Positions 1 to 58,858 of a stretch of 58,858 bases of DNA are shown piece by piece (the first letter of the stretch is position 1; the number at the start of each line of letters is the position of its first letter). The notes below the pieces were generated by a model. That model saw only the letters and a program-made list of their open reading frames with translations. It searched no databases and was not told the origin of the DNA. Made by a program: the position numbers and the translations under genes. The DNA is from a virus. The stretch lies in the IMG/VR virus record IMGVR_UViG_3300025626_000030, positions 1 through 58,858 of that record. One strand, given 5' to 3'.

Positions 1-885
1 ACCGCCCTGCTAGAAGCAAACGCTGCGGGTCTTGATCTGAACGCGCAAGCTATTGCAGACGCTCAACTAGATATTGACGCCTTAGTAGAGCAGGGTTCTT
101 CCACTCAAGACGCTGTTGCCGAAATTGCTGATCAGTTAGGCACTACCGCACAGGCTTTGGCTACAGCAATAGGGGGTATAGACACTGCTGTAGTGGGGGT
201 ATCTAGTGAGGTGCAGGCACTTTCCGAACTTATAGGTAAGCCTGCCAGTGCAATTACTGATACAGACATAGATTTTTACGCGGACTACTTAGCACAACAA
301 GAAGTACTTAGCGAGGCTGAACAGGCTTCTTTTGTTCCAACTGACCAACAATTGCAGTATGATGTTAACAATGATGGAGTCATTGATATTGCTGACCAAA
401 CTTTAGCAACTCAATCATTCCAAGGGCAAGACGTAGACCTAGCAGGTAAGTTTGCGGCAACGGGATTATATGCTGGGCAACAGGCGCTAGACGCTAGGTT
501 GCAAGACCAATTAGACTCCCAGCTTGAGTTTGAGCAGCAGCAAGCGTTAGAACGAGAGCGAGAGCTAGAACGAGAGCAAGCGTTAGAAGTACAACAGCAG
601 ATTGCCGCAAGTGCCTCGGTGGAAGCCGCGAACCAAGAGAAGTATGAAGAAGGGTTTAGACAGTTAGCGGCATCGAACGCCAGAGGGACTATCAAAACGA
701 ATAAAATGGGGCTAGCGGAGTTCGGCCCCCAATACGATTTTAAGTCTATCTTTGCGGATCAAAAGGACGCTTCGATGGCCATGACTCCCTACGGAGCTAA
801 CCAGCAAGGGTTTTTTGGTGCCAAAGCGGGCGGCAGGGTAGAGAGTGACACAGACAAATTGATACGATTAATTGGAGAACAGTGA
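1..885 (+). CDS. C-terminal end of a large virion-type protein (5' partial)
   Basis: Frame 1 is open from base 1 to the stop at 883-885. No start with a ribosome binding site is seen, so about 294 C-terminal residues of a gene entering from the left are visible. Residues 121-132 read DVNNDGVIDIAD, the spacing of an EF-hand or dockerin-type calcium loop. Residues about 175-205 are a Gln/Glu/Arg-rich probable coiled coil. The composition is rich in Ala, Gln and Asp, like the giant frame that leaves the window on the right, and both have calcium-type Asp motifs; they could be the two ends of one gene on a circular or permuted genome. The next gene starts on the stop codon (TGATG), so it is co-translated with the following virion genes. 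Function not recognised; a structural or tail-associated role is inferred from context only. Confidence 0.75.
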   Translation, partial: TALLEANAAGLDLNAQAIADAQLDIDALVEQGSSTQDAVAEIADQLGTTAQALATAIGGIDTAVVGVSSEVQALSELIGKPASAITDTDIDFYADYLAQQEVLSEAEQASFVPTDQQLQYDVNNDGVIDIADQTLATQSFQGQDVDLAGKFAATGLYAGQQALDARLQDQLDSQLEFEQQQALERERELEREQALEVQQQIAASASVEAANQEKYEEGFRQLAASNARGTIKTNKMGLAEFGPQYDFKSIFADQKDASMAMTPYGANQQGFFGAKAGGRVESDTDKLIRLIGEQ

Positions 886-2588
886 TGGGTTGGTATTCAG
901 ACACAGTAGATTTCCTTACGCCCGATGGTAGTAAGGTGGAAGAATTTTTTAATAGTGAAATTGTCGGCGGAGTTATACAAGGCGCTGCTGCTAATGAACT
1001 TAACAAATACTTCCAGCCAGACATACCCAAAGTAGGTTACCAAGGTAAGATACCTAACTTGCAGGCCGTACGCGAACGCGTGCCTATGCAACAACCTACA
1101 GAAGGACAGCCTGCCCGTAGACCCGGCGAAGCGGGACGTAGGTACTTCTCTGATGTGCAGTATGCAACACGCCCCAAACAAGAAACTCAGACAGTAGAAG
1201 AAGCACAAGCTAAAGCAAGGGCACAAGCAAACGATCTTGCAGGGATTGTCCCTGAACCCCAGACACCGGCTGGCAATGCCCAGTTTGACAATATTAATAC
1301 TGGTTTTGCTGCGGGTGGCATTGCCTCTGCGCATAATGGCTACTACCTAGGTGGTAAGACTGATGGCATGGCTGACGATGTGCCAGCAAGCATTGATGGT
1401 AAGCAAGAAGCCCGTCTGAGTGACGGTGAGTTCGTTATCCCTGCTGACGTAGTAAGTCACCTAGGCAACGGTAACTCTGATGCAGGTGCAGACCAGTTGC
1501 ACGGTATGATGAACAATGTACGTATGGAACGTACGGGTAACCCAGAGCAAGGTAAACAAATAGACCCTAACAAGTTTATGCCTACTATGGCTCAAGGCGG
1601 AATTGCACAGGCGTATAACAACGGCGGCTCTGTCTATAAAAACTATAGCCCCAAAACTAACTTCGCGGATGGTGACCCTGTAGTAGGCGGAGAAGGCGCG
1701 GGAACAGTAGACCCCAACGCAACGATCGGGCAAGTCGCGGGTACAGAATCCTCCCTTTCTAACTGGGCGGGGGACTACGTAGTTGACTTACTAGGACAAG
1801 GCAAGGCGCTGGGCAATCAAGAGTATCAAGCCTACGAAGGCCCGATTAGCGCAGGGGCATCCGATCTTCAAGATCAGGCGTTTACTGGGGTTGGTAGCTT
1901 AGACCAAGGGACAATGGGCGTCCAAGATTTCACTGCCGCAGATGCTACCGCAGGTATGAACCCGTACTTGATGGCCTCCCTCAACCCTCAACTAGATGAG
2001 GCTCGTCGTCAGTCAGAGATAAGTCGCGTTGCTAATGCGGGCCGCATGACTAAAGCGGGTGCCTTTGGGGGTTCTCGTCAGGCTCTTATGGATATGGAAG
2101 GCCAACGCGGGTTACAAGCTAACCTAGCGGACATAACGGGCAGGGGTTATAAAGATGCGTACGACGTAGCAAGAGATCAGTTCAACAAGACTCAAACCGC
2201 ACGTAACGCCTATGGCTTTGATGTACTTAACGAGCAGCAGGAAGCAGGTGCAACCCAGCGCGGTATCGAGTCTGAAGGTATGGCCGCAGATTACGCGCAG
2301 TTCAGCGAAGAACGTCAGTTCCCCTACACGCAAGTGCAGTACATGAAGTCGTTACTACAAGGATTACCTTTGGAAGCGCAGACTCAAAGTTATATTGCCC
2401 CTAGCAGCGCAGCGCAGCTAGCCAATACAGCAAATACAATAGATGAACTCTATGGCGAGTACGGGCCGGGATCATCGACGCCTTTTAACGCGGCTATTTA
2501 CGGCAGCGCAACAGCTACGCAAATCCAAGCGGAGCAAGTAGCAAACCCGTCGATTACCAACGCGCAAATAAAAGCCAAGTACCCTTAA
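885..2588 (+). CDS. virion-associated protein with glycine motifs and ARLSDGEFVIPADVV motif
   Basis: A 567-residue protein. The ATG at 885 overlaps the previous stop (TGATG) and has GGAG eight bases upstream, so it is preferred over the GTG at 882. Around residues 176-190 lies ARLSDGEFVIPADVV followed by a small Gly/Asp-rich stretch, a motif I associate with tail-region proteins of many marine and soil phages. Two Gly-Gly segments (about residues 142-157 and 236-251) have the pattern AxGGIAxAxNxGY/GG, which recurs in several other virion genes here. The C-terminal half is Gln/Ala-rich and probably helical. It sits between the giant frame and another glycine-motif gene. The exact role is unknown; a tail or ejection-complex component is inferred. 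Confidence 0.7.
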   Translation: MGWYSDTVDFLTPDGSKVEEFFNSEIVGGVIQGAAANELNKYFQPDIPKVGYQGKIPNLQAVRERVPMQQPTEGQPARRPGEAGRRYFSDVQYATRPKQETQTVEEAQAKARAQANDLAGIVPEPQTPAGNAQFDNINTGFAAGGIASAHNGYYLGGKTDGMADDVPASIDGKQEARLSDGEFVIPADVVSHLGNGNSDAGADQLHGMMNNVRMERTGNPEQGKQIDPNKFMPTMAQGGIAQAYNNGGSVYKNYSPKTNFADGDPVVGGEGAGTVDPNATIGQVAGTESSLSNWAGDYVVDLLGQGKALGNQEYQAYEGPISAGASDLQDQAFTGVGSLDQGTMGVQDFTAADATAGMNPYLMASLNPQLDEARRQSEISRVANAGRMTKAGAFGGSRQALMDMEGQRGLQANLADITGRGYKDAYDVARDQFNKTQTARNAYGFDVLNEQQEAGATQRGIESEGMAADYAQFSEERQFPYTQVQYMKSLLQGLPLEAQTQSYIAPSSAAQLANTANTIDELYGEYGPGSSTPFNAAIYGSATATQIQAEQVANPSITNAQIKAKYP

Positions 2589-2612: not shown

Positions 2613-4565
2613 ATGTTAGAAGCAGGCGGCATAGACAAGCTAGTTAACCAGAAGGCAGACGCCTATCGGAGCAATCCGCAAGCGCTAAAGCAAAGATACT
2701 CTCAGAATCAAGAGTTGATGGACTTGCTCGCCATGCAAAAACTGAAGACTGAAAAAGAAACTGTCGCCCGTGACATGGCATTAAAAGCCGAACAGACTCC
2801 CGGCACCATCGCAGAGCAATACGAGCAGCAGCTAGTGTCTATGAACAAAGATCAAATGGCCCAGCAGACTGCGGGAATCCTTGGAGAACGTCAGAAAAAA
2901 GCCCAACAGAAGTCGCAAAGCATGGGCATGCCTCCCCAACAACCGCAAGGTCAACGCCCCCCTATGCCTCAAGGCGCTCCTCAAGGTATCGCTAGTCAAC
3001 CTCGCCCTAACATGCAAGGTATGGCACAAGGCGGTATTGTCGGTTATCAAGCAGGGGGGAAGCTAAGTAGGCGAGAACGAGCACTAAAAGCCTTGGGTAT
3101 TACCGAAGATGCTTTGGAGCGGATGTCTCCTGACCAGAAGAAAGTTGTTGAACAGCAGATACAAAGTGAATACGTAAAGCAACGTAAAGAGTTTACCGTG
3201 CCTGAAATGCCTATCTCTAAGGTGGTAAGAGAGGCGCAAGACCCCGAAATACAAGCTGCAAAGAGGGAAGATATTCGTAGGCGTATGAACCCTACAGCAG
3301 AAGAAAAAGCGCAAGATGGTCTGGGCAATCTCCTTGCCGATAAAGAGCTACTTGCAGGGGAAGAAGAAGATATGACGCGCATTGCCGCCGCTACCGCTAC
3401 CGCTCCTACTACTGCTCCTGCCGCTACCGCTGCTGCGCCTACTCCCGCTACTGATCCTACTACTGGGGGAGTTGCTACATTACCTGTCGATCCTTCCGCA
3501 GGGGTGAACGCAAACTTAGAGCGTGTTGGGCTGGATGTCGATAGCCTAACCGCAACGCCAGACACATCTGGAATAAGCAGAAAACAAGTAACCGAAGCTT
3601 TAGCAGGCACGGGTGTACTTGAGGGACTTAAAAAAGACATAGCTACAGACCCCGCTAAAGTACAAAAAGATGAAATCGCTAGAATGAGTTCTGATGATAA
3701 AGATGCAGGGGGCTTCGATAGAGCTGGACAAAAAGCAATGTACGATAAGTACTTAGGAGAGAAAGAAACACTAGATGCTAAGGCGTTGAGTCCTGCCGAA
3801 GTAGAAAAAAGACGTAGGCGAAAAGCTATCCAAGGATTTATGTCAGAGGGTACTAGCCGTGGTACAGGTATTGCTCAAGCTAAATTTGATGACGATCTTG
3901 CTAAAAGCAGGCAAGGGAGCATTCTTCAGCGTTTGAGCATCGAGAAGCAAGGCATGGACAACGATGTCAAGATAGCGACTGCTATAAACGAAGAGGCAGG
4001 TCGTGCTTTGGGTAGGGCTATGGATGCACGCTCGAAAGCAATGACTACCGTATCTAATCTCGCCGCTGACGACATTTCTATGTACAATGCAGAAGCCAAT
4101 AGAATGTACACGGCCAACCAAAATGGTATCAAGAACAAAATTGATGCTCTACGAGTAGATACTGAAGCTAGACTACAAAGTCTTATTCAAAGTCAAGCTA
4201 GCGCCGCCCAAATCGGCACGGAGATTGCCAGACTAGAGAAAGAAGGTACAGACTTACGCGAAGTATTCTTTGCCCAACTCGGGCCAGAAATTGCACAGCT
4301 ACGTAGCAAAGAACGTAGGGAGGGCTTGACGGGAGATGAAATTAAGTTGCTAGCAGGGTACGAAGCCCAGTTCCAGCAGTTAAAAGAAAAAACGCGTATG
4401 GATGATACCATTGACATGTACCGTAAGATGTTAAAACAAGAGCAGGGGGGTTACTCTAACCAGATAAAATCTGGCACAACGAGTACAACAGGCACGACGT
4501 CAGGTGCAACTTCTACTCAACAAGCTCAAGTAGCAGCAAAAGCAAACTCGTACATACAACCATAA
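2613..4565 (+). CDS. helical virion-associated protein with AQGGIVGYQAGG motif
   Basis: A 650-residue protein with a clear ribosome binding site (AGGAGA, six bases before ATG). The N-terminal 130 residues are Gln/Lys-rich and helical, followed by a Pro/Gln stretch and the motif AQGGIVGYQAGG (about residue 139), shared with the upstream gene. Residues about 256-295 are a low-complexity Ala/Thr/Pro linker. The remainder is charged and largely predicted helical, with long heptad-like segments (about residues 400-600), ending in a Ser/Thr/Gln-rich tail. It is followed 20 bases later by the 2103-residue gene. In short-tailed phages, large helical proteins at this place are often internal or ejection proteins; that role is an inference from position and composition. 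No enzymatic motif is seen. Confidence 0.65.
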   Translation: MLEAGGIDKLVNQKADAYRSNPQALKQRYSQNQELMDLLAMQKLKTEKETVARDMALKAEQTPGTIAEQYEQQLVSMNKDQMAQQTAGILGERQKKAQQKSQSMGMPPQQPQGQRPPMPQGAPQGIASQPRPNMQGMAQGGIVGYQAGGKLSRRERALKALGITEDALERMSPDQKKVVEQQIQSEYVKQRKEFTVPEMPISKVVREAQDPEIQAAKREDIRRRMNPTAEEKAQDGLGNLLADKELLAGEEEDMTRIAAATATAPTTAPAATAAAPTPATDPTTGGVATLPVDPSAGVNANLERVGLDVDSLTATPDTSGISRKQVTEALAGTGVLEGLKKDIATDPAKVQKDEIARMSSDDKDAGGFDRAGQKAMYDKYLGEKETLDAKALSPAEVEKRRRRKAIQGFMSEGTSRGTGIAQAKFDDDLAKSRQGSILQRLSIEKQGMDNDVKIATAINEEAGRALGRAMDARSKAMTTVSNLAADDISMYNAEANRMYTANQNGIKNKIDALRVDTEARLQSLIQSQASAAQIGTEIARLEKEGTDLREVFFAQLGPEIAQLRSKERREGLTGDEIKLLAGYEAQFQQLKEKTRMDDTIDMYRKMLKQEQGGYSNQIKSGTTSTTGTTSGATSTQQAQVAAKANSYIQP

Positions 4566-4585: not shown

Positions 4586-7500
4586 ATGGCCACTATCCAG
4601 CAACTAGAAGACGCGGTTGTACGCGCTCGCGCAGCGAATGATGACGCCTCAGTACAGTACTTACTCCAGCAAATTGAGGGGAAAAAAGCTTCCGAAGAGG
4701 TAGACATATCGGGTTACCGCCTTGCAGAAGAAGAAGAAGACTCAGGATTTTTCGAGAACATAGCTTCAGGTTTTGGCGCGGGTGTTGTTGGTGTAGGAGA
4801 AATGGCGTCTCTCGGTGCCGTTACAGCACTAGAAGAGGAAGCAGAGCTTGAAGCCCGAGAGAAAATACAAAGCGTTGCCTCCTCCCTCCGTCCCGAAGGC
4901 GGCGATCCAGACTCTTACGCATATAAAATAGCACAGGGTTTCGGTTCTGTTGCCGGTATAGCCGTACCTGCCGCTGCCGCTGTCTATGCTGGTGCCCCCA
5001 CCCTCGTTGCTACAGGTATTGCTGGCGCGTTAGGTGTAGGTGCCGCATCGGGTGAGGCTAGTGAACGTGCCCGCGCCGCAGGTTCTACCGAAGAAGAAAG
5101 GTCTTCCGCTGTCCTCCGTGCTGCTCCTATTGGCCTTCTCGAAGTATTACCTTTGAGTAGGTTTATTAAGGCTATTGACGTTCCTGTCTTAACCGACCTA
5201 GCAAATAAAATTGGCCCTGACGTTGTAGAGACTTTGGGACAGAAAGTACAAAGCGCCTTTGTATCTGGCGGGTTTGAAGCTGCGCAGGAAGCCGCGTCTG
5301 GAGTCTTGCAGAACCTTAACGAACAGCAATACAACGCCGCTGCCGAAACCTTTGGTGGGGTAGGCGAAGAAGCTACTATCGGTGGTATTGTAGGTGCAAC
5401 TCTTGACCTGCTATTGCCGGGGGGAAGCCGAGCGCGAGGTGTGAGTAGAGAAGACGCTAAAGCCCTGATAGACAGCGAGACTGAGAACGACGAGCAAAGG
5501 CAGCAAGCTGACGAGGCGTTTCTCCTACCCGCACTTCCTGAGACCGTTAACATACCCATGCCTGATGGCTCCCTACGTGAAAACGTGTCAATGGATGACC
5601 CTGACGCAATAGCGTATGTACGCGCCCAGAAAATGCAGGGCAGGGCTGAAACAGACCTAACCACGCAGAGAAAAACTGAACTCGAAGCTATACGTACCGC
5701 CCAAGATAAAGAACAAGGACTAGCCTCACTAGTTAGGGACGACGCGGCAGAACAAGCACGTAGGCAAACTGGCGACCTATTCCCACTAGAAAAAGCAACA
5801 GCAGAAAGAGAAGCTGCTAGAGTAGCTGCACGCGCACCCGAGGGTATGAGTGACGCCGAAATGGCTGATGCTATGGCCGAGCAAGACGCCGAGACCGAGA
5901 GAGCAAAGCGTCTGGAAGATGACGACCAGATAAAAGAACAGCCTGACATGGTAGCCCGCGCAGAAGACGAACAGATAAGGGACATGGAAGAGACGGCTGA
6001 GATTGAATCCATGCTCGCAGAAGACGCGGCTCAGGAAGCTAAAGACGCTGAAGAAAAACGTGCTATAGAGCAAGAGTATTCCATCTTGTTTGAAGGTAAC
6101 CTAGATGTTGCTGATGCAGAAGCGAGAGATGCCGCCGTAGCAACCGAAAACAGAGCAGCACTAGCGCAGCTAGAAGCGCAAGTTAAAGAGCGTGGGCCTA
6201 AACAAACCCAACAACAGCAGCCTCTAGGTGGTATGCAGAGTAAGACCGCTGCCAAGAGACAAGGCGTGAGGCGCGATGCTACCGTAACTGGAGCCGAAAG
6301 TGTTCCTACTTTACCAGAGCTACAACCGGTGTCGAAAGCAGTTACCCAGCAGCTAGAGGGATTAGGTATTGCAGTACCTGCTGTAACGACTAAAGCGGCA
6401 CCAAAAGCAAAAGTGGCACCAAAAGCAAAAGCGCCAGTGCGCGGTACCCCGCCAACCCCAGTGCCTGTTGATACCAGTACACAAGAAGCCGTTGCCGATA
6501 TAGGCGGGAATATTGAGTTCCCCACTGCCATACCCCGTGGCACGGAGTTTACCCAGCCTGCTGACGTAGAAGCTATAGACGCGCTGCTAACCAAGAAAGT
6601 AGCTCGTTCAGGGGACGAGAAGATTGCTCAAACTTACATTAAGAGGTTTAAGCGACCTGCCGATGCGTTTGAGGCTATAGCGTTTGAAATCGCAGAGAAC
6701 ACGCCTAAGTTCCGTGAACAGAAAGGTACTCCTACATCCGAGAAAGCTAAGTTTGCAGGTACTGGTGGAGCTAACACTAAAACTACATTGCAGTGGATAG
6801 AGAAGAACCTAAGCCCCGATGCTAAGGCTGAAATAGATCGCCGCGTAGTCGAGCAACAGAATAAGTCAGCCGATGTAGAGAAGGGTACGAAAGCTAGGGC
6901 TACTCAAGAACGAGAAGATACTAGGGTAAAGCAACGCGAAACTAAGATAGCGCAGGATGTAGATAAGGCCACCGCTGGTAAAGCTAAAGTAGTTGGTACA
7001 TCTACCCCGTCCAAGGTTACTCCAAAAGCCGAGCCTAGCCCTACTGCCCGTGCAGATAAAGCCGCTAAGAAAGAAGATATTGTCAAAGAAGCGGTGGAAA
7101 AAGTACAGGGTAAGGCTAAGACAAAAGAACCTCTTACTGAGGATATGTCTCCCGCACAACTACGTGAAAAGATTGCCAAGGATACTGCCTCGTTTGTCGC
7201 AGACGGCGGCATCATAGACGTACTGAACCTAGAACTTGATCCTAAAGTAGCGGTGGCCTTAGATGCTAACCTCCCCACCGCTGTTAAGGCGTTACTGAAG
7301 AAAGGGGATTTAAAAGGCGCATTACAGTCCCTTGCTAAGTCCTCTAAAAACAAACGTGTTAAGCAAATAGCCAGAGCGTTGGCTGAGAACACCGGTACCA
7401 CCAAAGTAGAGTTGGCTAACACCGCAGAAATCCAAAAACGTGGGTACGATACCAAAGGCGAAGATGTAGCCGGATTGTTTGACCCCGCCATTAACACAGT

Positions 7501-10500
7501 AATACTTAACTCTAATGTACCCCTCACGGTACATGCACTGCTACACGAGACTACACATGCCTCGACAATTAACGTCCTCAAAAACAAATCGCATCCGCTA
7601 ACCAAGCAGATGGAGAAGTTGTATAAAGACTCCAAGCCCTACCTAGGTACAGCGTACGGAACTAAAAACTTAAATGAGTTCATAGCAGAAGCGTTTAGTA
7701 ACCCTAAGTTCCAGCAAGAGTTGGCCAAAATAAACGTCAAGGGGGAACCAATCAGTGCTTTGGAGCGGTTTTATCAAGCGGTTACTAACTACGTACGTAG
7801 ACTTATCGGTATGGAAACTAGACCTACGGGTTCGGCATTAGAAGCGGCTGATGCGGCTATCATAGGTATGCTCTCCCCGAATATAACTACACGCGGCGGC
7901 GCTATGTATATGAAGTCTACGCCCAAAGGTGTAAAAGAAGTACTCCGAAGCATAGGTGCCACACAGAAAGCTATTAACGACAATGTATCTTCAAAAGACT
8001 TCGTGAAGAACGCGAAAGACTTTGTTACTGACATGAGTATAACTACCAAGGTTAAAAAGGTATTCTTTAAGCTGACAGGTTCACAGGCTTTAGGAGACAT
8101 AGCACGGACGATGGGTTTCAAGCAGGCGGGGCTTAGACTACATGACGCGTTTGAAAGCCAGATTGGTGACATCCGTAGGGCCGATGGACTGGTACAAAAA
8201 GCCGTAGATGCTACCGATGCGTGGATTAAAAAGCCTAGCGTGGGCATGGATGGATTAAACGTCCTAAACAGCCTAGTGTATAGTTCAGAGCATGGTGCCA
8301 CCATCTACCAAGTAGACCCTACTAAGCCTAGGAGTTACTACAAGGGCAAGAAAGCTGCGGCAGATAACAACATAGACTTAGTAGACATATGGGACGCGCA
8401 ACGTAAAGACTGGAACAAACTAACGGCTAACGGGGGGGACAAGATATTTACCCTACAGCGCGACGAGTATGGCCGTATGCACAAAGAACTAGTGAAAGCT
8501 ATCGAAGGGCAAATCGACGAGCTGGTCGGGACAGATAGTGCTAGTGGTAAGAAACTGAAGAAGCAGGTATACGAGCGTATGTTTGCGGCGGGTAACCTAG
8601 ACGTGTACTTCCCCCTAGTACGGGAGGGCAACTTTAAACTGTTCTTCAATGCCAAGATTAGAGACGCGGACGGTAATGTGCTGCGGACAGAGCCGGTATT
8701 TTTAATGTTTAATAGTAAGTCTGACCGTAACAATACCGAAGCGGCTTTAAAAGATGATCCCGATGTTGTTGGAGATATAGAAGCGTACGAGGGAACAACT
8801 TCTCGTGAGCGGTTTAACAACGCCCCCTCTGGATCGTTTGTTGCCGATGTACTAGACGTGTTAAAGGCCAGCAAAGTAGATCCCAAGGTGCAAGAGGAAG
8901 TCATGCGTTTGTTCATTGAGGCGCTACCTGAAAACTCATTCGCTAAGTCCCTTCAAAGACGTAAGAACACGTTAGGTTTTATAGCGGATACAAGAGTAGC
9001 CCTGAAGGACAAAGGTTTTGCTTTAAGTGCTCAAGTAGAGAAGATAAAAAACAGCGCGATAATACGTAGCATAGAAAACGAGATAGCCGAGATGAAAGCT
9101 CCAGAAGGGGGCAACCGCGAAACTTTTCAAGCTATGCAAGCAGAGCTTATCGAGCGGGCTATTTTCGCTAGGACTGGTGCTAAAGACAAACCTGCCGAAC
9201 AGTACTATAAATTGGCTAACCAAGTAGCGTTTATATATACCATCGGGTTTAACGCTTCGTCTGCAATTGTCAACCTGACTCAGGTACCTATGTTTGTAGG
9301 GCCGATGTTATCTGCTAAGTTTGGGGTTAAAGAAACCTATGCAGCTATGGCGCGTGCAAGCAAGTTCGTAAGTATAGATTCTAAGCTGTCTATGGATGAG
9401 TTCTACGATATTGCGGGGGAGGGTAGAAACCTTACTTTCACGGTAAAGAAATCCTTGATAAAGAAAATACGTGCTAACTCCACTGAGGCAGAAGCTAAGA
9501 CGAAGATAGCAGAACTGGAGAAGATAGCTCCGCTAGTTAAACTAGCTATGGGAAGAGGGCAGCTTTACAACACCCAACTCTCTGACGCGTTAGGTATTTC
9601 TGACGCGGGGCGTAGGGACAGTAAAAACCCTGCAATGCGTTTCCTAGACAATACGTCCGCGCTATCCGCAATTATGTTTAACACTGCGGAAAGATTTAAC
9701 CGACAGACCGCTATGGTAATGTCCTACAACCTAGCCCTAGACAAGATGACAGCGGACGGAAAAGCAGGTAAACAGTTTTACAGTTCTAAACAAGCTGGTT
9801 TTATAGACGTACCTAGTGACTCAGAGTCCATAGCGGCGCTAGCGGCTGAAGAAGCGTTATACCTAACGCAAGAAACAAACGGCGGTGCAGTACTAGAAAC
9901 CGCTCCGTCCCTTTCTCAGCAAGGTGTGGGCCGTGTAGCCTTAATGTACAAGAGTCACGGGCTACAGATGTACTACACTATGATTAAATCCGCTAAGTTA
10001 GCGGCTGACAACATGTATGGAAAGACCCCCAAAGAGTTAGAACTTAGAAATATGGCCCTAAAGCAACTTGCGGGAGTACATCTAACTGCGTTGTTCTTCG
10101 CTGGTGTGCAGGGTATACCTTTGTATGGCGCAGTCACTATGCTAGCGGACATGTTTTTACTCGACGACGAAGAAGATGATGCGGATACAGTAGTACGTAA
10201 GCATCTAGGGGAAGGGTGGTATAAAGGAGCCGTTGCTGAACTTACGGGAGTTGATATTGCCGGTCGGGTTCGGCTCACGGGTTTGTTACTACAGGAGAAC
10301 AGGTTTAACAAAGACCCGTCTCTCGAAGAGTCCATAGGTTTTGCTATAGGTGGCCCCGCATTAAGTGTAGCTGGTAGGCTACAGCGCGGTATGACTGATT
10401 TGGGTGAAGGTGAAGTGCAGCGTGGGATAGAAAACTTATTGCCCGCAGGAATAACTAACGTGTGGCGTAATACGATGGGCCGTTATGTCCAAGAGGGGGG

Positions 10501-10897
10501 CATCTTCACTCGACGTGGGGACGTTATTCACGACGACTTGACTATAGGGGATTTTGCAACTCAAGCGATGGGTTTCCCCCCTGTGGAATACACGTTCAAA
10601 ACGGAACAGACTGCACGGAACAAAGGCATAGAAAAAGCGATAACTGAAAGACGGTCTAGCCTCACTAAGAAATACTACGTAGCCCAACGGCTAGGAGACT
10701 ACGAGGAGATGAATGAAATACTTATAGAGATAGGGAAGTTCAATGATCGTCACCCTGTAGAAGCTATACGGCCAGAGACTATTATGAAGTCTGTCAAGTC
10801 TCATATGAGTACAACCGCAACGATGCACAACGGAGTGTCTATAAGCCCTCTTTTGCGGTACGCGATCAATAAAAGTAACGAGGAGTACAGACAATAA
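4586..10897 (+). CDS. giant polyvalent-type virion protein with HETTH zincin motif
   Basis: A 2103-residue protein, the largest complete gene in the window. After a charged N-terminus there is a Gly/Ala-rich hydrophobic region (about residues 118-152) that could insert into membrane, then a long acidic helical segment and an Ala/Lys/Pro repeat linker (about 600-630). Residues 987-991 read HETTH, the zinc-metallopeptidase signature HExxH. Some 40 residues later NLNEFIAEAF supplies E1031 or E1035 as a possible third ligand. Zincin domains of this form with an EFIAEAFSNPxFQ tail are known in phage polyvalent proteins, which are injected with the DNA. Near residue 1548 is GFNASSAIVNLTQVP, a segment I recall from other large phage proteins. 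It probably travels in the virion and enters the host; protease activity is predicted, not shown. It ends just before the convergent terminator. Confidence 0.75.
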   Translation: MATIQQLEDAVVRARAANDDASVQYLLQQIEGKKASEEVDISGYRLAEEEEDSGFFENIASGFGAGVVGVGEMASLGAVTALEEEAELEAREKIQSVASSLRPEGGDPDSYAYKIAQGFGSVAGIAVPAAAAVYAGAPTLVATGIAGALGVGAASGEASERARAAGSTEEERSSAVLRAAPIGLLEVLPLSRFIKAIDVPVLTDLANKIGPDVVETLGQKVQSAFVSGGFEAAQEAASGVLQNLNEQQYNAAAETFGGVGEEATIGGIVGATLDLLLPGGSRARGVSREDAKALIDSETENDEQRQQADEAFLLPALPETVNIPMPDGSLRENVSMDDPDAIAYVRAQKMQGRAETDLTTQRKTELEAIRTAQDKEQGLASLVRDDAAEQARRQTGDLFPLEKATAEREAARVAARAPEGMSDAEMADAMAEQDAETERAKRLEDDDQIKEQPDMVARAEDEQIRDMEETAEIESMLAEDAAQEAKDAEEKRAIEQEYSILFEGNLDVADAEARDAAVATENRAALAQLEAQVKERGPKQTQQQQPLGGMQSKTAAKRQGVRRDATVTGAESVPTLPELQPVSKAVTQQLEGLGIAVPAVTTKAAPKAKVAPKAKAPVRGTPPTPVPVDTSTQEAVADIGGNIEFPTAIPRGTEFTQPADVEAIDALLTKKVARSGDEKIAQTYIKRFKRPADAFEAIAFEIAENTPKFREQKGTPTSEKAKFAGTGGANTKTTLQWIEKNLSPDAKAEIDRRVVEQQNKSADVEKGTKARATQEREDTRVKQRETKIAQDVDKATAGKAKVVGTSTPSKVTPKAEPSPTARADKAAKKEDIVKEAVEKVQGKAKTKEPLTEDMSPAQLREKIAKDTASFVADGGIIDVLNLELDPKVAVALDANLPTAVKALLKKGDLKGALQSLAKSSKNKRVKQIARALAENTGTTKVELANTAEIQKRGYDTKGEDVAGLFDPAINTVILNSNVPLTVHALLHETTHASTINVLKNKSHPLTKQMEKLYKDSKPYLGTAYGTKNLNEFIAEAFSNPKFQQELAKINVKGEPISALERFYQAVTNYVRRLIGMETRPTGSALEAADAAIIGMLSPNITTRGGAMYMKSTPKGVKEVLRSIGATQKAINDNVSSKDFVKNAKDFVTDMSITTKVKKVFFKLTGSQALGDIARTMGFKQAGLRLHDAFESQIGDIRRADGLVQKAVDATDAWIKKPSVGMDGLNVLNSLVYSSEHGATIYQVDPTKPRSYYKGKKAAADNNIDLVDIWDAQRKDWNKLTANGGDKIFTLQRDEYGRMHKELVKAIEGQIDELVGTDSASGKKLKKQVYERMFAAGNLDVYFPLVREGNFKLFFNAKIRDADGNVLRTEPVFLMFNSKSDRNNTEAALKDDPDVVGDIEAYEGTTSRERFNNAPSGSFVADVLDVLKASKVDPKVQEEVMRLFIEALPENSFAKSLQRRKNTLGFIADTRVALKDKGFALSAQVEKIKNSAIIRSIENEIAEMKAPEGGNRETFQAMQAELIERAIFARTGAKDKPAEQYYKLANQVAFIYTIGFNASSAIVNLTQVPMFVGPMLSAKFGVKETYAAMARASKFVSIDSKLSMDEFYDIAGEGRNLTFTVKKSLIKKIRANSTEAEAKTKIAELEKIAPLVKLAMGRGQLYNTQLSDALGISDAGRRDSKNPAMRFLDNTSALSAIMFNTAERFNRQTAMVMSYNLALDKMTADGKAGKQFYSSKQAGFIDVPSDSESIAALAAEEALYLTQETNGGAVLETAPSLSQQGVGRVALMYKSHGLQMYYTMIKSAKLAADNMYGKTPKELELRNMALKQLAGVHLTALFFAGVQGIPLYGAVTMLADMFLLDDEEDDADTVVRKHLGEGWYKGAVAELTGVDIAGRVRLTGLLLQENRFNKDPSLEESIGFAIGGPALSVAGRLQRGMTDLGEGEVQRGIENLLPAGITNVWRNTMGRYVQEGGIFTRRGDVIHDDLTIGDFATQAMGFPPVEYTFKTEQTARNKGIEKAITERRSSLTKKYYVAQRLGDYEEMNEILIEIGKFNDRHPVEAIRPETIMKSVKSHMSTTATMHNGVSISPLLRYAINKSNEEYRQ

Positions 10898-10933: not shown

Positions 10934-10984
10934 AAGGGGAAACGAAGAACTGAGGGAGGGACTCACTCTTCGTCCATCATGGTA

Positions 10985-11194: not shown

Positions 11195-11201
11195 TAACAC
11201 G

Positions 11202-22539: not shown

Positions 22540-22547
22540 AATCTTCA
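22490..22547. repeat. 58-bp near-identical duplicate, copy 2
   Basis: Partner of 21369-21426, with three substitutions in 58 bases. It covers the start and first 16-17 codons of the 180-residue gene. The identity extends into the bases just upstream of the ATG, so the start site was copied with the coding part. Confidence 0.9.
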
Positions 22548-30101: not shown

Positions 30102-30246
30102 GAGGCGCAACGCGGATCACCAACTGGTATCAACGTGTTATCCTGTGACGTATAACCTTGCCCGGGGCGGAGGCGCAACGCGGATCAACAACTGGTATCA
30201 ACGTGTTATCCCGCGAGGCGCTACGCGGATCAACAACTGGTATCAA
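30102..30246. repeat. three 42-bp direct repeats
   Basis: Copies at 30102-30143, 30170-30211 and 30215-30246 (the last truncated). Each starts GAGGCGC, goes through ACGCGGATCA and ends with AACTGGTATCAA; copies 1 and 2 continue to GTGTTATCC. Copies differ by one or two bases. They are GC-richer than the flanking iteron region. They could be protein-binding sites, part of an origin, or remnants of a repeat element. Confidence 0.85.
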
Positions 30247-30264
30247 AAAGTACTTTTTGGTAGG

Positions 30265-36766: not shown

Positions 36767-36964
36767 ATGGCTACTACCGTCCTAGACGTGCTAAAGAAGA
36801 AAATCGAAGAGGACATCTCTTCTGCTCAAGAACATCTCAGTGGGGGCGCACCGAAAGACTACGCGTGCTACCGAGAAGTAGTTGGTTTGATTCGAGGTCT
36901 CGAAGCCAGCTTAGGGTACATAAACGACCTCTCGCGTAACTATTTGGATGATGACAATGACTGA
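36767..36964 (+). CDS. small conserved protein after the portal
   Basis: A 65-residue acidic helical protein, MATTVLDVLKKKIEEDISS, with GLIRGLEASLGYINDLSRN and a terminal LDDDND. I recall similar helical proteins right after the portal in related marine phages. It overlaps the following GroES-like start by 8 bases. The function is unknown; a head-assembly helper is plausible from position. Confidence 0.6.
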   Translation: MATTVLDVLKKKIEEDISSAQEHLSGGAPKDYACYREVVGLIRGLEASLGYINDLSRNYLDDDND

Positions 36965-37331
36965 TCTAAGTAACGAAGTAACGGAAGAAGAAGTAGAAGC
37001 CCAACTGCCGAAACCTGTGGGATATAGGGTTTTAGTGGCTATGCCGGAAGTAGATGATACTTATGGTAGTAGCGGCATCATTAAGTCGAGTAAGGAAATG
37101 CACAACGAGCACATCATGTCGATCATGGGGCTTGTGTTGGATATGGGCGATGGTGCCTATTCTGATAAAGAGCGCTTCCCTACAGGGCCGTGGTGTAAAC
37201 AAGGTGACTACGTAATGTTCCGCATGAACACTGGAACGCGTTTTAAAGTAGAAGGTGTTGAGTATCGTCTGATGAACGACGATTCAATTGAAGCTGTAGT
37301 AAGTGACCCCCGTGGCATAACACGAGCGTAA
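36957..37331 (+). CDS. GroES-like co-chaperonin
   Basis: A 124-residue protein of the Cpn10 fold, read from the ATG at 36957 with GGA eight bases upstream; two ATGs at 36948 and 36951 are alternatives. KPVGYRVLVAMPEVD matches the first strand of GroES, SSGIIKSSKEM the mobile loop, and GLVLDMGDGAY plus GDYVMFRMNTGTRFKVEGV the rest of the barrel. A phage-borne co-chaperonin, as T4 gp31, lets host GroEL fold the large capsid protein. Its place between portal and scaffold supports that. An insertion at SDKERFPTGPW is longer than in bacterial GroES. Confidence 0.85.
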   Translation: MTDLSNEVTEEEVEAQLPKPVGYRVLVAMPEVDDTYGSSGIIKSSKEMHNEHIMSIMGLVLDMGDGAYSDKERFPTGPWCKQGDYVMFRMNTGTRFKVEGVEYRLMNDDSIEAVVSDPRGITRA

Positions 37332-50738: not shown

Positions 50739-52574
50739 ATGCCCCTTAAAAAACTACAGCTAAAACCCGGTATTAACCGTGAGAACACCCGCTATACTAA
50801 TGAGGGCGGTTGGTATGAGTGCGATAAAGTCCGGTTTCGCCAAGGTCTGCCGGAGAAGATTGGGGGGTGGCAGCGTATATCTAACGCTACGTTCCTCGGC
50901 GTATGCCGATCTCTGTGGAACTGGGTTACCCTAAGTAGTCAGAACCTGATCGCCGTAGGCACTAACTTAAAGTACTACATTGAGAACGGTGGCGCTTACA
51001 ACGATGTCACACCATTACGTGCTACTGTAACCCTGACTAACCCGTTTGAGACTACTAGTGGTTCGCCTATAGTAGAAGTTACTGACGCCAACGGAGGCTA
51101 TATTGACGGGGACTTTGTTACGTTTAGCGGCGCAAGTGCTGTAGGGGGTCTCACTCTAAACGCCGAGTATCAGCTAACTGAAACTACAACAAACAACGTA
51201 TATACAATAGATGCAGGGACTAACGCCAGTTCAAGTGCTACAGGTGGCGGCACAGTAACGGCTGCCTATCAGATCAATGTTGGCCCTGCTTTTGCTGTCC
51301 CCCTAGTTGGTTGGGGGGCTTCAAGTTGGGGTGTCGGTGCGTGGGGCGTAGGTGACTCTTCTACTAATAGCCTACGTATATGGAGCCAAGCTAACTTTGG
51401 AGAAGATTTAATACTTGCTCCTCGGGACGGCTCTATATACCTTTGGGATGCCACAAACGGGGTAACCACTAGGGCAGTAGCTCTTACAGGTACGGAAGTA
51501 CCAACGTCACAGAAGCTAATCCTCGTGTCAGACGTTAATCGGTTTGTATTTGCTTTCGGTGCTAACGACCTCGGTTCTTCCCAGCCTAACCCTATGCTTA
51601 TTCGTTGGTCAGACCAAGAAGACGCTACTAACTGGTCACCTTCCTCTACTAACCAAGCGGGAGACCTCATACTATCTAACGGTACAGAGATTGTAGCTGC
51701 TCAACAGGCGCGTCAAGAAGTACTAGTATGGACAGACTCCGCTCTGTACGCGTTACAGTACGTTGGTGCTCCTGCCGTGTGGACTGCGCAGTCCGTTGGT
51801 GAGAATACATCTATTGCCTCGCAGAACGCTGTGGGTTGGGCTAATGGCGTGGCTTATTGGATGGGTCGAGATAAATTTTACATGTACGATGGACGTACCC
51901 AACCGCTCAAATGTGACTTACGAAGGTTTATATTCAACGACTTTAACACCCTACAGTACGAGCAAGTATTCTGCGGTACTAATGAGTCCTACCACGAGAT
52001 TTGGTGGTGGTATTGCTCCAGCAGTTCTAGCGTAGCCGACAAATATGTAGTGTATAACTATGTAGAAAAAGTATGGTACTACGGCAACATGAGTCGTACT
52101 GCATGGCTTGATTCGGGGCTAAGAGACTTCCCTCTAGGCGCTACGTACAGTAATAACCTTGTTAATCACGAGGAGGGCGTTGACGATAACGAAGGGGCGA
52201 CTACCGCTCCTATAGCGGCGTACATATCTTCCGCGCAGTTTGATCTGGAAGACGGGCATCAGTTTGCCTTTATTTGGCGTATCTTGCCGGACATTACGTT
52301 TGATGGGTCTGAAGTAGATTCTCCTAGTGCGACTATGACCCTGTTACCCCTACAAAGTTCCGGTTCAGGGTATAATAACCCCACTTCTGTAGGCGGTACC
52401 AATAGCGCAGGTATTACACGTTCGGCGATATTGCCGGTAGAGCAGTTTACAGACCAACTATTCATACGTGTACGTGGACGACAGCTAGCGATAAAGGTAG
52501 AATCTAGCGCAATAGGTGTTACTTGGCAGTTGGGTAGCCCTCGTATAGACATGCGTTCGGACGGGAGACGGTAA
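50739..52574 (+). CDS. tail hub protein, P22 gp10-like
   Basis: A 611-residue protein starting with LKPGINRENTRYTNEGGWYE and VRFRQGLPEKIGGWQRI, a motif I recognise from the P22 gp10-type tail-hub proteins of podoviruses. The middle includes beta repeats and SSWGVGAWGVGDSS; the C-terminus, FTDQLFIRVRGRQLAIKVES, closes the fold. It forms the tail nozzle below the gp4-like adaptor. No tape measure gene accompanies it, which is the main evidence for a short-tailed phage. Confidence 0.8.
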   Translation: MPLKKLQLKPGINRENTRYTNEGGWYECDKVRFRQGLPEKIGGWQRISNATFLGVCRSLWNWVTLSSQNLIAVGTNLKYYIENGGAYNDVTPLRATVTLTNPFETTSGSPIVEVTDANGGYIDGDFVTFSGASAVGGLTLNAEYQLTETTTNNVYTIDAGTNASSSATGGGTVTAAYQINVGPAFAVPLVGWGASSWGVGAWGVGDSSTNSLRIWSQANFGEDLILAPRDGSIYLWDATNGVTTRAVALTGTEVPTSQKLILVSDVNRFVFAFGANDLGSSQPNPMLIRWSDQEDATNWSPSSTNQAGDLILSNGTEIVAAQQARQEVLVWTDSALYALQYVGAPAVWTAQSVGENTSIASQNAVGWANGVAYWMGRDKFYMYDGRTQPLKCDLRRFIFNDFNTLQYEQVFCGTNESYHEIWWWYCSSSSSVADKYVVYNYVEKVWYYGNMSRTAWLDSGLRDFPLGATYSNNLVNHEEGVDDNEGATTAPIAAYISSAQFDLEDGHQFAFIWRILPDITFDGSEVDSPSATMTLLPLQSSGSGYNNPTSVGGTNSAGITRSAILPVEQFTDQLFIRVRGRQLAIKVESSAIGVTWQLGSPRIDMRSDGRR

Positions 52575-53187: not shown

Positions 53188-56100
53188 ATGTCAGGATATA
53201 ACAGGACGTCAGGGCAATCTTACAACTACAGTCAAGATGGCACTTTTACCGACCAGTATGGTAACGTAATTGGCACTACGGGAAATTCGCTAGACCGCGC
53301 ATACTACTACTGGCAATCTCGTGCAGGTTCTGGGGCTTTTACCCAAGTAGGAGAAGGTTTAGACCGGCCTGAATATGGCGACCGCTGGAAAGGACATTCT
53401 GAATATAACCCCGCTTACTCTTACTACAAAGCTATGGGTGTTCCTATACGTGATTTTTACTACGCAAGTGATTCCCATTCTGAAGCAGAAATAGAAAGCT
53501 ACGCCCAACTAATCGAAGAGTTTGAAGCAGGCCCAGTTAGCGTTGTGGGTTCTCCTGAGTATACCCGCGCCCAAGAGTGGTTCCGAGAGGCCGTACCTAC
53601 GTTAATTAGCAATACAAATGTAGCTCGGGATAACCTCGTAGACTACTTCGGTATGGAGAAAGAGTTAACCAAAATAGGATACAGCGAGGAAGAAATTGGA
53701 AAGGCGCTAAACAAGAGTAGAATGTCGCCTTACTCAGGGATGGCGTTTAGCACTGGGGCAGAAAGCGCAGGGTTTGCGGACGCGTACACTAAACTATTTA
53801 ACGAGGCAAAAATCTACGGGGGTATTACAGAAGACTTCCAAAAAGCTTACGACATAAAAGCTCCTGAGTACCACGACAAAAACTTTGCCCGACTAGTTTC
53901 CCTGAGTATGACCGACCCTCAAGCGTACCAAAGAGAGTACGCAAAGATGAACTTGCGAGACAAAAATGTCTACATGTTTAAAGCGTACGACAAGGGGTTG
54001 TTCGAGGACTCTGCCGAGCGCACTCGCCTAGAAGAAGCGGGAGTTGCCCCCGAAGAAATTAATAAACGTATCGAACTAGGTTCGATGAACAAGTATAAAG
54101 AAGTTATAGTTAGCAACTTGCACGAGTCGGGTAACTATGACGATGTGTATAAAAGACCCGCTACCGGAGATGCAGAACTTTTAGGTTTTGACGTTGCGGG
54201 GGGTGACCCTGAATCCGAGTGGGTAGTAAAGATGAAAGGCAACGCCTTTCAAGACGCTGGTGGCACTTCGGGCGGGCAGTATGGGTACCGAAGAATAAAG
54301 TTCTTCCCTGAAGAAACCCTCCGCGCTTCTGGGGTGTACGGCCCTGAGTCTAAGTACAACAACTATTTACAGTCTGAATCTAGCCTCGAAGAAAAGCTAG
54401 CCCGACAGTCAGTAGGAAAAATGGAAACCATTGGGGGTCTAGGGGAGTACGTAGACGTAAGCCCTGAAGACGAGGGCGCGCTGGAGGGGGTTGTTAACTT
54501 TGCAGATTTAGCCCTTTCATTATTTGTCCCCACGTATAACCTAATTAAAATCGGCGTAAACGCCGCTCAAGGAGAGACCCTACACTTGGCGGACTACATT
54601 TCTGCGGGTGTATCGGCACTAAAGGTATTTGACGTTATCGCAGCGCCTATGGGGGTGGAAGAAGCGGCGGAAGTAGGTGCGACAGCCTCTGCAAACGTAC
54701 TTGAAGCCGGAGGCACAGCAGCGGAAGCGGCAAGAGCATCAGAGCGGGCTATAGCCTTGGCATCAGCGGGCAAAGGACTTACCTTGCCGGGAATGTCCGA
54801 ACCGCTAACTTACGCGCAGACAGTAGGACTTGCTAACTCTATAACCGAGGGTAACCCTGCGGCGTTTATCCTAGGTACTTTTGGCGGAGATATGCTAGAC
54901 GCAGCTTTCGCTAAGTATGGAGTAGACCCTGCAAATCTCCCTGCGGGAGTAAAAGAAGGCATTGTTAAGGCCATAAGTAAAGTAGGGCAGGGAGAAGATT
55001 GGGATGAGGCTTTATCTTCTGGCGCGTACGCGTGGTTTAAAAGTTCCGACTTAGGAGATGGATTCTTAGGAGAACTTCAGCAGGTGGGTAGGGATATAGA
55101 TAGTACGTACTTGCAGCCCCTAAAAGATTCCCTTCCTGACCTCGGGGGGGTTGTGGGCGATTGGCCTGTGTGGGGAGAAATATCTGAGTCTACCGGCCAG
55201 CTAATAGACGGGTTCCAAGACATAATAGGTGGAATGAACGACTTAGTTCCGGGGATAACAGACTTTGCACAAGAAATAGCCAACAGTGTTTTGGAAGTGA
55301 TACCTACTGAAAGCATAGAAGAAGCTCTTAGCAAGATTGGTCAGATGACAGGCGGGGCGTTTAACGAGCTACCTGCCGCCGCTCAAGATGCCCTAGAAGA
55401 AGGACTTCAAAGCGCCATAATAGACGGAGAAGTAGACTCTCTTGCTATGGCCGAAGCCGTATCTGCCGCAGTAATAACTACTGATGCCATAAACGAAGCG
55501 TTCCCTGAAAGGCTAACTGACGTAGTTTCGGCTCGGATAATAACTAGTGCAGTCCGAAATTCAATAACTGCCGCTATGTCAGGAGGAGATGTTTCTGATG
55601 CGTTTGTACTAAGTATAGCTCAAGGGGCCGCTAACGCCGCTAAAAAATCCTTCCGCGAAGGAACTTGGAAAGACGATCTTAAAGGACTAGTGGACAGAGT
55701 AGAAGGAGACTATACAGACACAAACAACTTACGTGCTGACGTAGATAAAGGAGCTACTGACTATGCGACTAAAGCTAAAGAGTACAATGACCTTGTAACT
55801 GATATGAACTCAGAAGAAGCGGAAGTACTACGCTTATCGGAGAAAGCTGCCAGTACAGGGGCACAAGCAGATGAAGCGGCGTTTAACGCAGCCCGAGACG
55901 CTTTTCAAACAAAAGTAGTCGATACTTACGCCCCGCAACTAAGCACCATAGTACAAGACATAGATAGCATTAAAGTAAAGCGAGATGAAGATGTGAGTAA
56001 GTACACTGCATCTCTGGATAACTTAGATACGGCTACAGTACTGCTTAACGACAACTTAACTCCAGTGTACGCAGATATAGACAAGCTTGCCGTTGAAGGG

Positions 56101-58858
56101 ATTAACCCTGATTTTGACGTTAAGTTTTACGCCCAACAGAATGGTATTACAGAAGAAGAAGCCTACAAAGACTACTTAACCAACGGGTTGTACACCAACG
56201 CCCCCGCCAATCAGACGGCACTTACCGCACAAAACACTGCAACAGTAAACAACGTGCTCAACGATTTAGCCGCATCCACGGGGTTAGACTTGACTAAGCT
56301 AGCGCCCGAACAAATGAAAGCGGTTGTACAAAGGTTAACACAGGTTGCTCAGGGGGATGGAGTAGACCTTAAAGACTTAAATGTTGCTGCTGTAGCTCAA
56401 AATGCGCTAAGTGTAATTAATAATCCAGAGGGGACTGGGGACGAGTTCTTCAGTATGACCACCGATGCCAATGGGAATGTAACTTCTTTCGAGTACGGTA
56501 GTTCATCTGCGGGGTTTAATAGAGCCGAAGGAGTTACTAATCAAGACGTTCTTAGTGGCGCTGCTAGAGCGCAAGTTAACCCTGAAACAGGACAGTATGA
56601 ATGGACTAAAGTTCCACCTCAGACTTATGTTGCTGAAGGGCAACTATACCAGTACGACGCAGAGACTGGACAACCTTACACGACAAACGCAAAGGGGGAG
56701 CGTGAAGACGTAGACTTTATAGTTTTAGCAGGGGGTAACATTGACCCGTTTACTCCTGATGTATCCCCTACGTTACAAGATTTGTCGGACAAAAACTCCC
56801 CCGCGTATAACCCTGAAGTGTTTACAGAGGAGTTAAATAACAGCGCCACCGTTGATGACGGGGGTAATGTGGTAGCGGATGAAAGTTGGGCTGACTGGCT
56901 ATTGGGGGCGTTCCAAGATGGGGCTACCTACATAGCGAAAGCTGAAGAGGAAATAGATGACGCGGGTGGACGTTCAGACTGGATGCCGGGTTCAGACCGG
57001 GAATCTTGGACTAACCCTCAAAATAGGTTTTCTATATTGACCCAAGGAATATCGCAATTTGCGGGGTTTATAGGGGGGATGGCCGACCTTGTTTCTCAAG
57101 AGTACGGAGGCGAAATAACTCAGTTTGCAAAAGACTTAGAAACCCTAGGGTTAGGTTCGGCTACTGAGGAATACCAAGCTGCTAAAGTAAGAGTAGACGA
57201 GTTTGCGGCAAATTTACCCCAAGCGACAGACGACCCTGACACCCCTATAGAATACTACGAAGAAGATGTGTACTCGTATGCTCCTCCGGGTATGGGGGGA
57301 ACTACTCTCATGCACCGAAAAGGAGATTATAAAGGCGGGGATGAGAGCAGGGGGTATGATGCTTTTTTACATGGAATGGGGAACGTATTAGAAACAGCGA
57401 AATTTGACCCTAATATGTTTTTTGCCCAGAACATACTCGTGGAACTGCCCTCCGAAACCGCTACGGTAATGGTGGGTATGAAACTTAAACTTGGAGCGGA
57501 AGTAATGCTGAGGGGGCTTAGTTCTGTAAGAGGGCTAGGTTTGGCGGATGACGTAATAAAATCCGCGAGTACAAAATTTGGTTTGGGTGGAGCAGCCGCA
57601 ACGGACGTTGCGGAAAGTACAGGCGCTAATTTTGCAGGTGCCTACGAGCAGGCTTACGCTACCCAAGAAAAAATGTTAGGGATAGAGGCCGATAGACTAG
57701 AATTAACAGGGCAGGATAAGCAAGATTATATAGACTCATTTACTGAGGACACTGTTAACTACTCACTAAGCGTAGCTACAGACGCTGCCTACGTGGCGGC
57801 TATGGCTACCACTGCTGTATTGTTTTCTGGCGGTATGGCACTGGACAAATTATTTATTGACGGCAAAGTTCCTGACGAGATGCTACCCCTGTGGAAACAA
57901 ACCGTTGGGTACGTAAATAGTAGAAAAAATGCTGTCGTAGGAGAAGGTGGTTCCGAGGGCTTAGAAGAACTTATTGTATCTGATTTTGTTAATGGGCAAT
58001 TGCACTTAATAGACCCTTCCATAAACGTGGCCCAAGAAAACGGAATTGCTACCGCAACGGGTATTGTAGTTGGGGCGGGTACGACGGCTACCATACTGGG
58101 GGTCACTGATATACAAACCCTAAGCAGTCGCCTGATACTTATGCAAAACCCCGAGGCGCTAGAAACTTTAGAGAATAGCGATAACTACAGTAGGGAAGAA
58201 CTAGAATCTCAACTAAACACATTCTTAGGTGATCCTCAAGTTGCTACTGACGCGGTAAACTTCTTGTACGACGAAGTTTACACAAGCACTGCCGAAGCCA
58301 CCGATGCGCTAGAAGCTTTAGGTATACCCTACACGCCGGAAGATGTTACCAATAACACAGGCGAAACAGCAGATGACGACCTAGACGATCAGCTCGCGGC
58401 GTACTGGGCAGCAACCCAAGGAACAGATACCGATACTGACGGCGATGGCATACCCAATGTGCAGGATAACGCACCTAATGACCCAAACATTAGTGGTATA
58501 GACATTGATCCTGACACGCAAGACACATCTTACGTAGATGCTGATGGGCGTATTGTTGTAACTAGCCCCGATGGAGTAGTTAGTATTTTTAACTCCGATG
58601 GCACCCCTGTAACACCTGATTTTACCACTATGCCTATAATTGGTGACGAAGATGTAGATAAAGATCCCGATGTAGACGTAGATGATACTATTGACGAAGA
58701 TCCCGATGTAGACGTAGATGATACTATTGACGAAGATTCCGATGTAGACGTAGATGATACTATTGACGAAGATCCCGATGTAGACGTAGATGATACTATT
58801 GACGAAGATTCCGATGTAGACGTAGATGGTACTATTGACGAAGATTCCGATGTAGACG
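53188..58858 (+). CDS. giant modular virion-type protein, 3' partial, Asp-rich repeats
   Basis: An open frame from the ATG at 53188 to the window end, at least 1890 codons, with AGAGGT about six bases upstream. Domains I can point to: an N-terminal polar region (about 1-420), hydrophobic segments near 430-470 and 1533-1553 that could contact membrane, and a large Asp/Glu/Ala-rich helical part (about 700-960). At about 975-1000, DFDVKFYAQQNGITEEEAYK is a repeat-like motif seen in extracellular proteins. At about 1746-1766, DTDTDGDGIPNVQDN is a thrombospondin type 3-like calcium motif. From about residue 1825 the 12-residue repeat DEDPDVDVDDTI begins and runs off the end. Likely a tail-tip or ejected structural protein; function not recognised. 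Confidence 0.8.
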   Translation, partial: MSGYNRTSGQSYNYSQDGTFTDQYGNVIGTTGNSLDRAYYYWQSRAGSGAFTQVGEGLDRPEYGDRWKGHSEYNPAYSYYKAMGVPIRDFYYASDSHSEAEIESYAQLIEEFEAGPVSVVGSPEYTRAQEWFREAVPTLISNTNVARDNLVDYFGMEKELTKIGYSEEEIGKALNKSRMSPYSGMAFSTGAESAGFADAYTKLFNEAKIYGGITEDFQKAYDIKAPEYHDKNFARLVSLSMTDPQAYQREYAKMNLRDKNVYMFKAYDKGLFEDSAERTRLEEAGVAPEEINKRIELGSMNKYKEVIVSNLHESGNYDDVYKRPATGDAELLGFDVAGGDPESEWVVKMKGNAFQDAGGTSGGQYGYRRIKFFPEETLRASGVYGPESKYNNYLQSESSLEEKLARQSVGKMETIGGLGEYVDVSPEDEGALEGVVNFADLALSLFVPTYNLIKIGVNAAQGETLHLADYISAGVSALKVFDVIAAPMGVEEAAEVGATASANVLEAGGTAAEAARASERAIALASAGKGLTLPGMSEPLTYAQTVGLANSITEGNPAAFILGTFGGDMLDAAFAKYGVDPANLPAGVKEGIVKAISKVGQGEDWDEALSSGAYAWFKSSDLGDGFLGELQQVGRDIDSTYLQPLKDSLPDLGGVVGDWPVWGEISESTGQLIDGFQDIIGGMNDLVPGITDFAQEIANSVLEVIPTESIEEALSKIGQMTGGAFNELPAAAQDALEEGLQSAIIDGEVDSLAMAEAVSAAVITTDAINEAFPERLTDVVSARIITSAVRNSITAAMSGGDVSDAFVLSIAQGAANAAKKSFREGTWKDDLKGLVDRVEGDYTDTNNLRADVDKGATDYATKAKEYNDLVTDMNSEEAEVLRLSEKAASTGAQADEAAFNAARDAFQTKVVDTYAPQLSTIVQDIDSIKVKRDEDVSKYTASLDNLDTATVLLNDNLTPVYADIDKLAVEGINPDFDVKFYAQQNGITEEEAYKDYLTNGLYTNAPANQTALTAQNTATVNNVLNDLAASTGLDLTKLAPEQMKAVVQRLTQVAQGDGVDLKDLNVAAVAQNALSVINNPEGTGDEFFSMTTDANGNVTSFEYGSSSAGFNRAEGVTNQDVLSGAARAQVNPETGQYEWTKVPPQTYVAEGQLYQYDAETGQPYTTNAKGEREDVDFIVLAGGNIDPFTPDVSPTLQDLSDKNSPAYNPEVFTEELNNSATVDDGGNVVADESWADWLLGAFQDGATYIAKAEEEIDDAGGRSDWMPGSDRESWTNPQNRFSILTQGISQFAGFIGGMADLVSQEYGGEITQFAKDLETLGLGSATEEYQAAKVRVDEFAANLPQATDDPDTPIEYYEEDVYSYAPPGMGGTTLMHRKGDYKGGDESRGYDAFLHGMGNVLETAKFDPNMFFAQNILVELPSETATVMVGMKLKLGAEVMLRGLSSVRGLGLADDVIKSASTKFGLGGAAATDVAESTGANFAGAYEQAYATQEKMLGIEADRLELTGQDKQDYIDSFTEDTVNYSLSVATDAAYVAAMATTAVLFSGGMALDKLFIDGKVPDEMLPLWKQTVGYVNSRKNAVVGEGGSEGLEELIVSDFVNGQLHLIDPSINVAQENGIATATGIVVGAGTTATILGVTDIQTLSSRLILMQNPEALETLENSDNYSREELESQLNTFLGDPQVATDAVNFLYDEVYTSTAEATDALEALGIPYTPEDVTNNTGETADDDLDDQLAAYWAATQGTDTDTDGDGIPNVQDNAPNDPNISGIDIDPDTQDTSYVDADGRIVVTSPDGVVSIFNSDGTPVTPDFTTMPIIGDEDVDKDPDVDVDDTIDEDPDVDVDDTIDEDSDVDVDDTIDEDPDVDVDDTIDEDSDVDVDGTIDEDSDVD
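58660..58858. repeat. 36-bp tandem repeat, Asp-rich, open at window end
   Basis: Unit GACGAAGATCCCGATGTAGA followed by CGTAGATGATACTATT, 36 bases, in frame. Full copies start at 58693, 58729, 58765 and 58801; a partial one precedes (from 58660) and another (58837-58858) is cut by the end. Variation is one or two bases per unit (CCC or TCC, GAT or GGT). A contig ending in such a repeat is typical of an assembly break. Confidence 0.95.

Follow-up and report, generated by a model that had tools for sequence, protein, structure and literature searches.

Two open frames at the edges of a marine phage record as the very likely halves of one giant late gene

Described relatives and the late gene cassette

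The ejection (internal virion) proteins of podoviruses, such as T7 gp14-gp16 and P22 gp7, gp16 and gp20, are large helical proteins with hydrophobic stretches, encoded in a late position near the tail hub. A T7-like ejection set has also been described for a pelagiphage (PMC10504331). The isolates compared in this study are the Pelagibacter phages HTVC027P and HTVC023P, 023Pt_psg01, DSL-LC04 and the Roseobacter phages CRP-901 and CRP-902, along with Synechococcus phage MinM2 and Planktothrix phage Pag-Yong1. In the compared isolates, a stabilization-type protein is followed by a structural-gene cassette that ends in a large gene, and the genes occupying the place discussed below are annotated as tape measure, DNA transfer or structural.

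The same arrangement is found in the window, by which we mean the whole 58,858-nucleotide stretch of IMG/VR record IMGVR_UViG_3300025626_000030. Its terminase is 31-47% and its portal protein 38-43% identical to those of the isolates, its late gene order is similar, and the phage is podovirus-like and distantly related to HTVC023P and HTVC027P. Terminase, portal, major head, tail-fibre, holin, endolysin and stabilization genes lie 5' of a giant gene that heads the cassette. A GroES-type co-chaperonin gene (36948-37331) is situated between the portal and capsid genes, as it is in HTVC027P and CRP-901. The genes surrounding the giant gene are as follows:

45299-47644: separate tail-fibre gene
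50739..52574 (+): upstream neighbour, a tail/stabilization-type virion protein (phrog_3287), with the same neighbour in relatives
882..2588 (+): downstream neighbour, orf568, whose GTG start overlaps the giant gene's stop
2613..4565 (+): third late-cassette gene, from the frame listing and gene order in relatives
4586..10897 (+): fourth cassette gene, 2103 aa, resembling giant phage proteins of the 'DarB-like antirestriction' type over its C-terminal third

A HETTH motif was spotted by eye in the 2103-aa product. Part of the front half of orf568 matches one MinM2 gene and the back half matches the adjacent one; orf568 is probably a fusion. Three relatives (L054, L055 and L057) have a shorter frame, or no long frame, in its place.

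The window departs from the compared isolates in the first gene of the cassette, which is much shorter in the isolates. The 'tail tape measure protein' of DSL-LC04 (760 aa) shares the cassette place and has glycine/alanine-rich hydrophobic stretches, but it is one third of the giant protein's length, and its C-terminal DSIPAMLSDGEFV-type domain matches orf568, by motif, rather than the giant protein. It was also considered whether the short genes that open the isolates' cassettes correspond to the giant gene minus its long N-terminus. This reading was rejected as unsupported: the isolates' DGMSDDIPA/DGEFV domain lies in orf568 and not in the giant protein. Grouping with the giant virion proteins of podovirus-like phages is by position and not by sequence membership.

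One gene across two edges

The giant gene is represented in the window by two open frames, one leaving at the right edge and one entering at the left:

53188..58858 (+): 5' part of the giant gene, 1890 codons, from the frame listing; 98.8% DNA identity to the sister contig L022
53188..54477 (+): variable N-terminal module, about 430 residues
55255..58557 (+): conserved central region, residues 690-1790, from comparison with relatives; predicted with low confidence to be mainly helical
58661..58858 (+): acidic 12-residue unit DVDVDDTIDEDP/S, a 36-bp tandem repeat that runs off the window
1..885 (+): 3' part of the giant gene, 294 codons, with the last 53-residue helical repeat and a conserved C-terminal domain
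358..390 (+): calcium loop YDVNNDGVIDI of dockerin/EF-hand-like type, unchanged or almost unchanged in 13 relatives

The right-hand frame (53188-58857) opens with an ATG at 53188 and is free of stops up to the window edge, and the left-hand frame is stop-free back to base 1 and ends at 885. Frames this long are far beyond chance, and the giant frame recurs in many other contigs, conserved at an amino-acid identity of about 20-47%. The initial annotation had described 1890 codons exiting on the right, inside a repeat, and 294 entering at base 1, and the frame listing agrees on each point. The repeat is a 36-bp tandem array that fills the last 198 bases in 5.5 copies (97% matches), and the longest exact repeat within it spans 90 bp (58667 and 58739). 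Direct joining of base 58858 to base 1 does, as annotated, produce a stop (TGA) at 33-35, and the codon phase across the edges calls for a missing piece of 2 modulo 3.

The whole gene is present in L022 (IMGVR_UViG_3300000101_000715), an IMG/VR contig of 12229 bp whose DNA is 97-99% identical to the window's on either side of the break: its bases 4589-10248 align with window 53188-58853, and 10535-11798 align with window 1-1264. L022 carries a single uninterrupted ORF of 2276 aa, which starts like the right-hand frame and ends like the left-hand frame. As read in this sister strain, the piece missing from the window is 281 bases, a length from which the window strain may differ by whole repeat units. 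These units are 36 or 159 bases, both multiples of 3, so a different repeat number would change the length by multiples of 3 only. The gap length of 2 modulo 3 predicted by the initial annotation is the one seen in L022 (281 mod 3 = 2), the protein is longer than the 2184 residues given as its minimum, and the proposal of one gene with an unassembled piece between the edges is supported by the single L022 ORF spanning both. The 281-base piece holds no other genes, only further repeats, namely the closing part of the acidic 12-residue array together with two of the three 53-residue helical repeats; the latter are spaced 159 bases apart in L022, and the window keeps only the third. Repeats sit at both lips of the gap. 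When the 281-base DNA was sought elsewhere in the window record, the only match was the related third repeat, at 81%. The last partial acidic unit reads DSDVD in the window, whereas L022's last unit reads DSDVEL, which suggests that the window strain may carry at least one further repeat unit. The two edge frames are almost certainly halves of one giant gene of about 2280 aa, split at the edges because assembly of a circular map stopped inside the repeats.

A circular genome map

When rotated, each of two relatives, G001 (58318 bp) and G002 (57950 bp), proves collinear with the window over the whole of its own length. The ends of G001 map to 29.5-30 kb of the window and those of G002 to about 48.5-49.5 kb, and both relatives are continuous across the window's own ends; the three records thus have differing break points, each continuous over the others' ends. 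In four more relatives of 58-62 kb, the terminase gene and orf568 occupy yet other positions. The relatives are broken elsewhere, and only a circular arrangement makes them collinear with the window. With the gap added, the window therefore represents almost the whole circular genome map, about 59.1 kb, of an uncultured podovirus-like phage, and not a fragment with two unrelated partial genes. Such a map is consistent with headful packaging or terminal redundancy.

Two other accounts of the edges have to be weighed against this one. If the right-hand frame stopped just past the edge and another gene started before base 1, the window alone would look the same, and a direct join does give a stop; yet the locus reads as a single frame both in L022 (97-99% identical DNA) and in 12 further contigs, so that two separate genes are very improbable. 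Real genome ends at a packaging site within the giant gene, with no assembly break, would suit a record that is classed as linear and in which end repeats were not found. This account is hardly credible, however, as the gene is unbroken in relatives, which break elsewhere, and fixed ends within a coding repeat would truncate it. One giant gene opened by assembly is biologically mostly ordinary, being a break in a large late gene, and it is a warning that repeat arrays within giant virion genes break phage assemblies; the protein family behind the break is undescribed.

A giant protein family of marine phages

Twelve contigs (L003-L007, L009-L011, L014, L015, L017 and L018), some family contigs being near-identical strains, carry one stop-free frame of 1808-2425 codons in the same place, and frames of 1681-2577 codons are found there in further relatives. 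The family frame lies 3' of a 611-aa stabilization-like gene wherever the locus extends that far, and 5' of orf568. The first ~400 residues are poorly shared and are found only in strains about 99% identical, and the central region is 20-44% identical across the family. A linker of 399-1019 residues follows, made of repeats that vary by phage, including DVDVDDTIDEDP, PVD, EADRLAAE, the TSP3-like DTDGDGIPD and the 53-residue helical units. From the calcium loop onward the tail is nearly fixed, at 156-175 residues, and begins at an almost invariant YDVNNDGVID. Among 15 contigs examined that end inside the giant gene, 11 stop in the linker or at its start, a count that is descriptive only, because the set includes several near-identical strains and leaves out L049 and L052. 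Taken jointly with the join and the circle, it is close to certain that these frames define a conserved, hitherto undescribed giant protein family of marine phages with a phage-specific linker repeat sequence.

The giant product is acidic, and its central region contains hydrophobic stretches near residues 1525-1550 and 1617-1635 and, close to its end, a match to TSP3-like calcium repeats. Modelled with AlphaFold, the C-terminal part and the central region reach only low confidence (mean pLDDT of 61 and 50), and the core is predicted, at that low confidence, to be mainly helical. The calcium loop, a single loop, scores 14.9 bits against Pfam dockerin (cut-off 22.9, E 0.031), and the duplicated calcium-binding segment of a type I dockerin was not found at the Pfam cut-off; a calcium-loop profile matches a solved dockerin chain with E 5e-5 over 24 residues. 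The Pfam TSP_3 match likewise falls short of its cut-off (20.0 bits against 25, E 5.5e-4), and several DxDxDGxPD units are present in L004, L015 and L023.

The protein scored no match at the Pfam cut-off and none of significance among the PHROGs, and a tblastn search with both frames found no match in 50,697 phage records. When profiles built from the C-terminal domain and from the whole protein were run on the six-frame ORFs of six isolate stretches, cassette genes included, nothing was found. Of tape-measure profiles, TMP_3 appeared in 1 of 12 members, at only E 0.027. In the PDB, the central region hit F-BAR and dynein chains, which was put down to coiled-coil composition. Genome contigs searched for relatives yielded none, and hence no host.

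Function of the giant protein

The giant gene lies in a late virion cassette, beside tail-hub and other ejection-type genes. Like the T7 and P22 ejection proteins, its product combines this position with large size, a predicted helical core and hydrophobic stretches; unlike them, it has a repeat linker and calcium-type motifs, and no similarity to a known ejection protein family was detectable in Pfam or PHROG, the PDB profile hits being to eukaryotic coiled-coil chains. By position and composition, the giant protein is probably a virion protein of the ejection or internal-core kind, an assignment based on these two features because no convincing Pfam, PHROG, phage-record or isolate-profile match was obtained. 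For the full explanation, comprising the join, the circle and the ejection role, we estimate a probability of roughly 0.7, limited by the function part.

The main rival accepts a single gene and takes its product to be an adhesin that forms a tail fibre or binds the receptor. In this view, the likeness to calcium-dependent surface proteins lies in the acidic TSP3-like repeats, the repeat linker and the variability of the N-terminus; the TSP3 and dockerin-like calcium motifs and the variable modules and repeat numbers speak for it. An adhesin is nevertheless unlikely, given that the tail-fibre gene is already separate, that the giant gene follows a stabilization-like protein and adjoins DNA-transfer-type genes, and that the product has hydrophobic stretches in a largely helical predicted core.

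If the protein is of the ejection kind, it would be made together with the three genes after it and delivered via the short tail, and its helical core and hydrophobic stretches may help to form or line a route across the cell envelope. The linker of acidic and helical repeats could act as a variable-length spacer, possibly stiffened by calcium, and the conserved C-terminal domain could anchor the protein to a partner. A more specific version, which we regard as quite doubtful, is that uncultured marine podovirus-like phages eject a giant family whose fast-changing calcium-binding linker would determine how far apart a membrane-active core and a conserved anchor can lie, with the distance tuned to each host's envelope.

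Palindromes and other features of the window

No tRNA and no Rfam family was found in the window. A palindrome, TGTATACATATGTATACA, occurs in six copies (23824, 27623, 29188, 29528, 30048 and 31010), four of them exact and two with one mismatch, with none expected in shuffles. They are clustered in the strand-switch region and 5' of genes that run leftward. TGTATACATATGTATACA is absent from G001 and G002, where 16-bp palindromes of their own (TATAACACGTGTTATA, TTATAACATGTTATAA) occupy what seem to be similar places. The palindromes are likely phage-specific operators, and a candidate binder is the 73-aa protein encoded at 23381-23602 (-), whose match to a LacI-type helix-turn-helix is weak (E 2e-5, narrowly under the cut-off). 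The strand-switch region also holds three copies of a 47-nt direct repeat (30102-30261, spacings 68 and 45), near the break point of G001. A 58-bp stretch is present at 21369-21426 and 22490-22547 in copies 95% identical, giving two genes nearly the same N-terminus, MKIMSRGxTHGGKGDKQRPT. At 25122-27597 (-), an ATPase-like gene adjoins a DUF2201 metallopeptidase/VWA-like gene, forming a MoxR-VWA-type pair in a phage.
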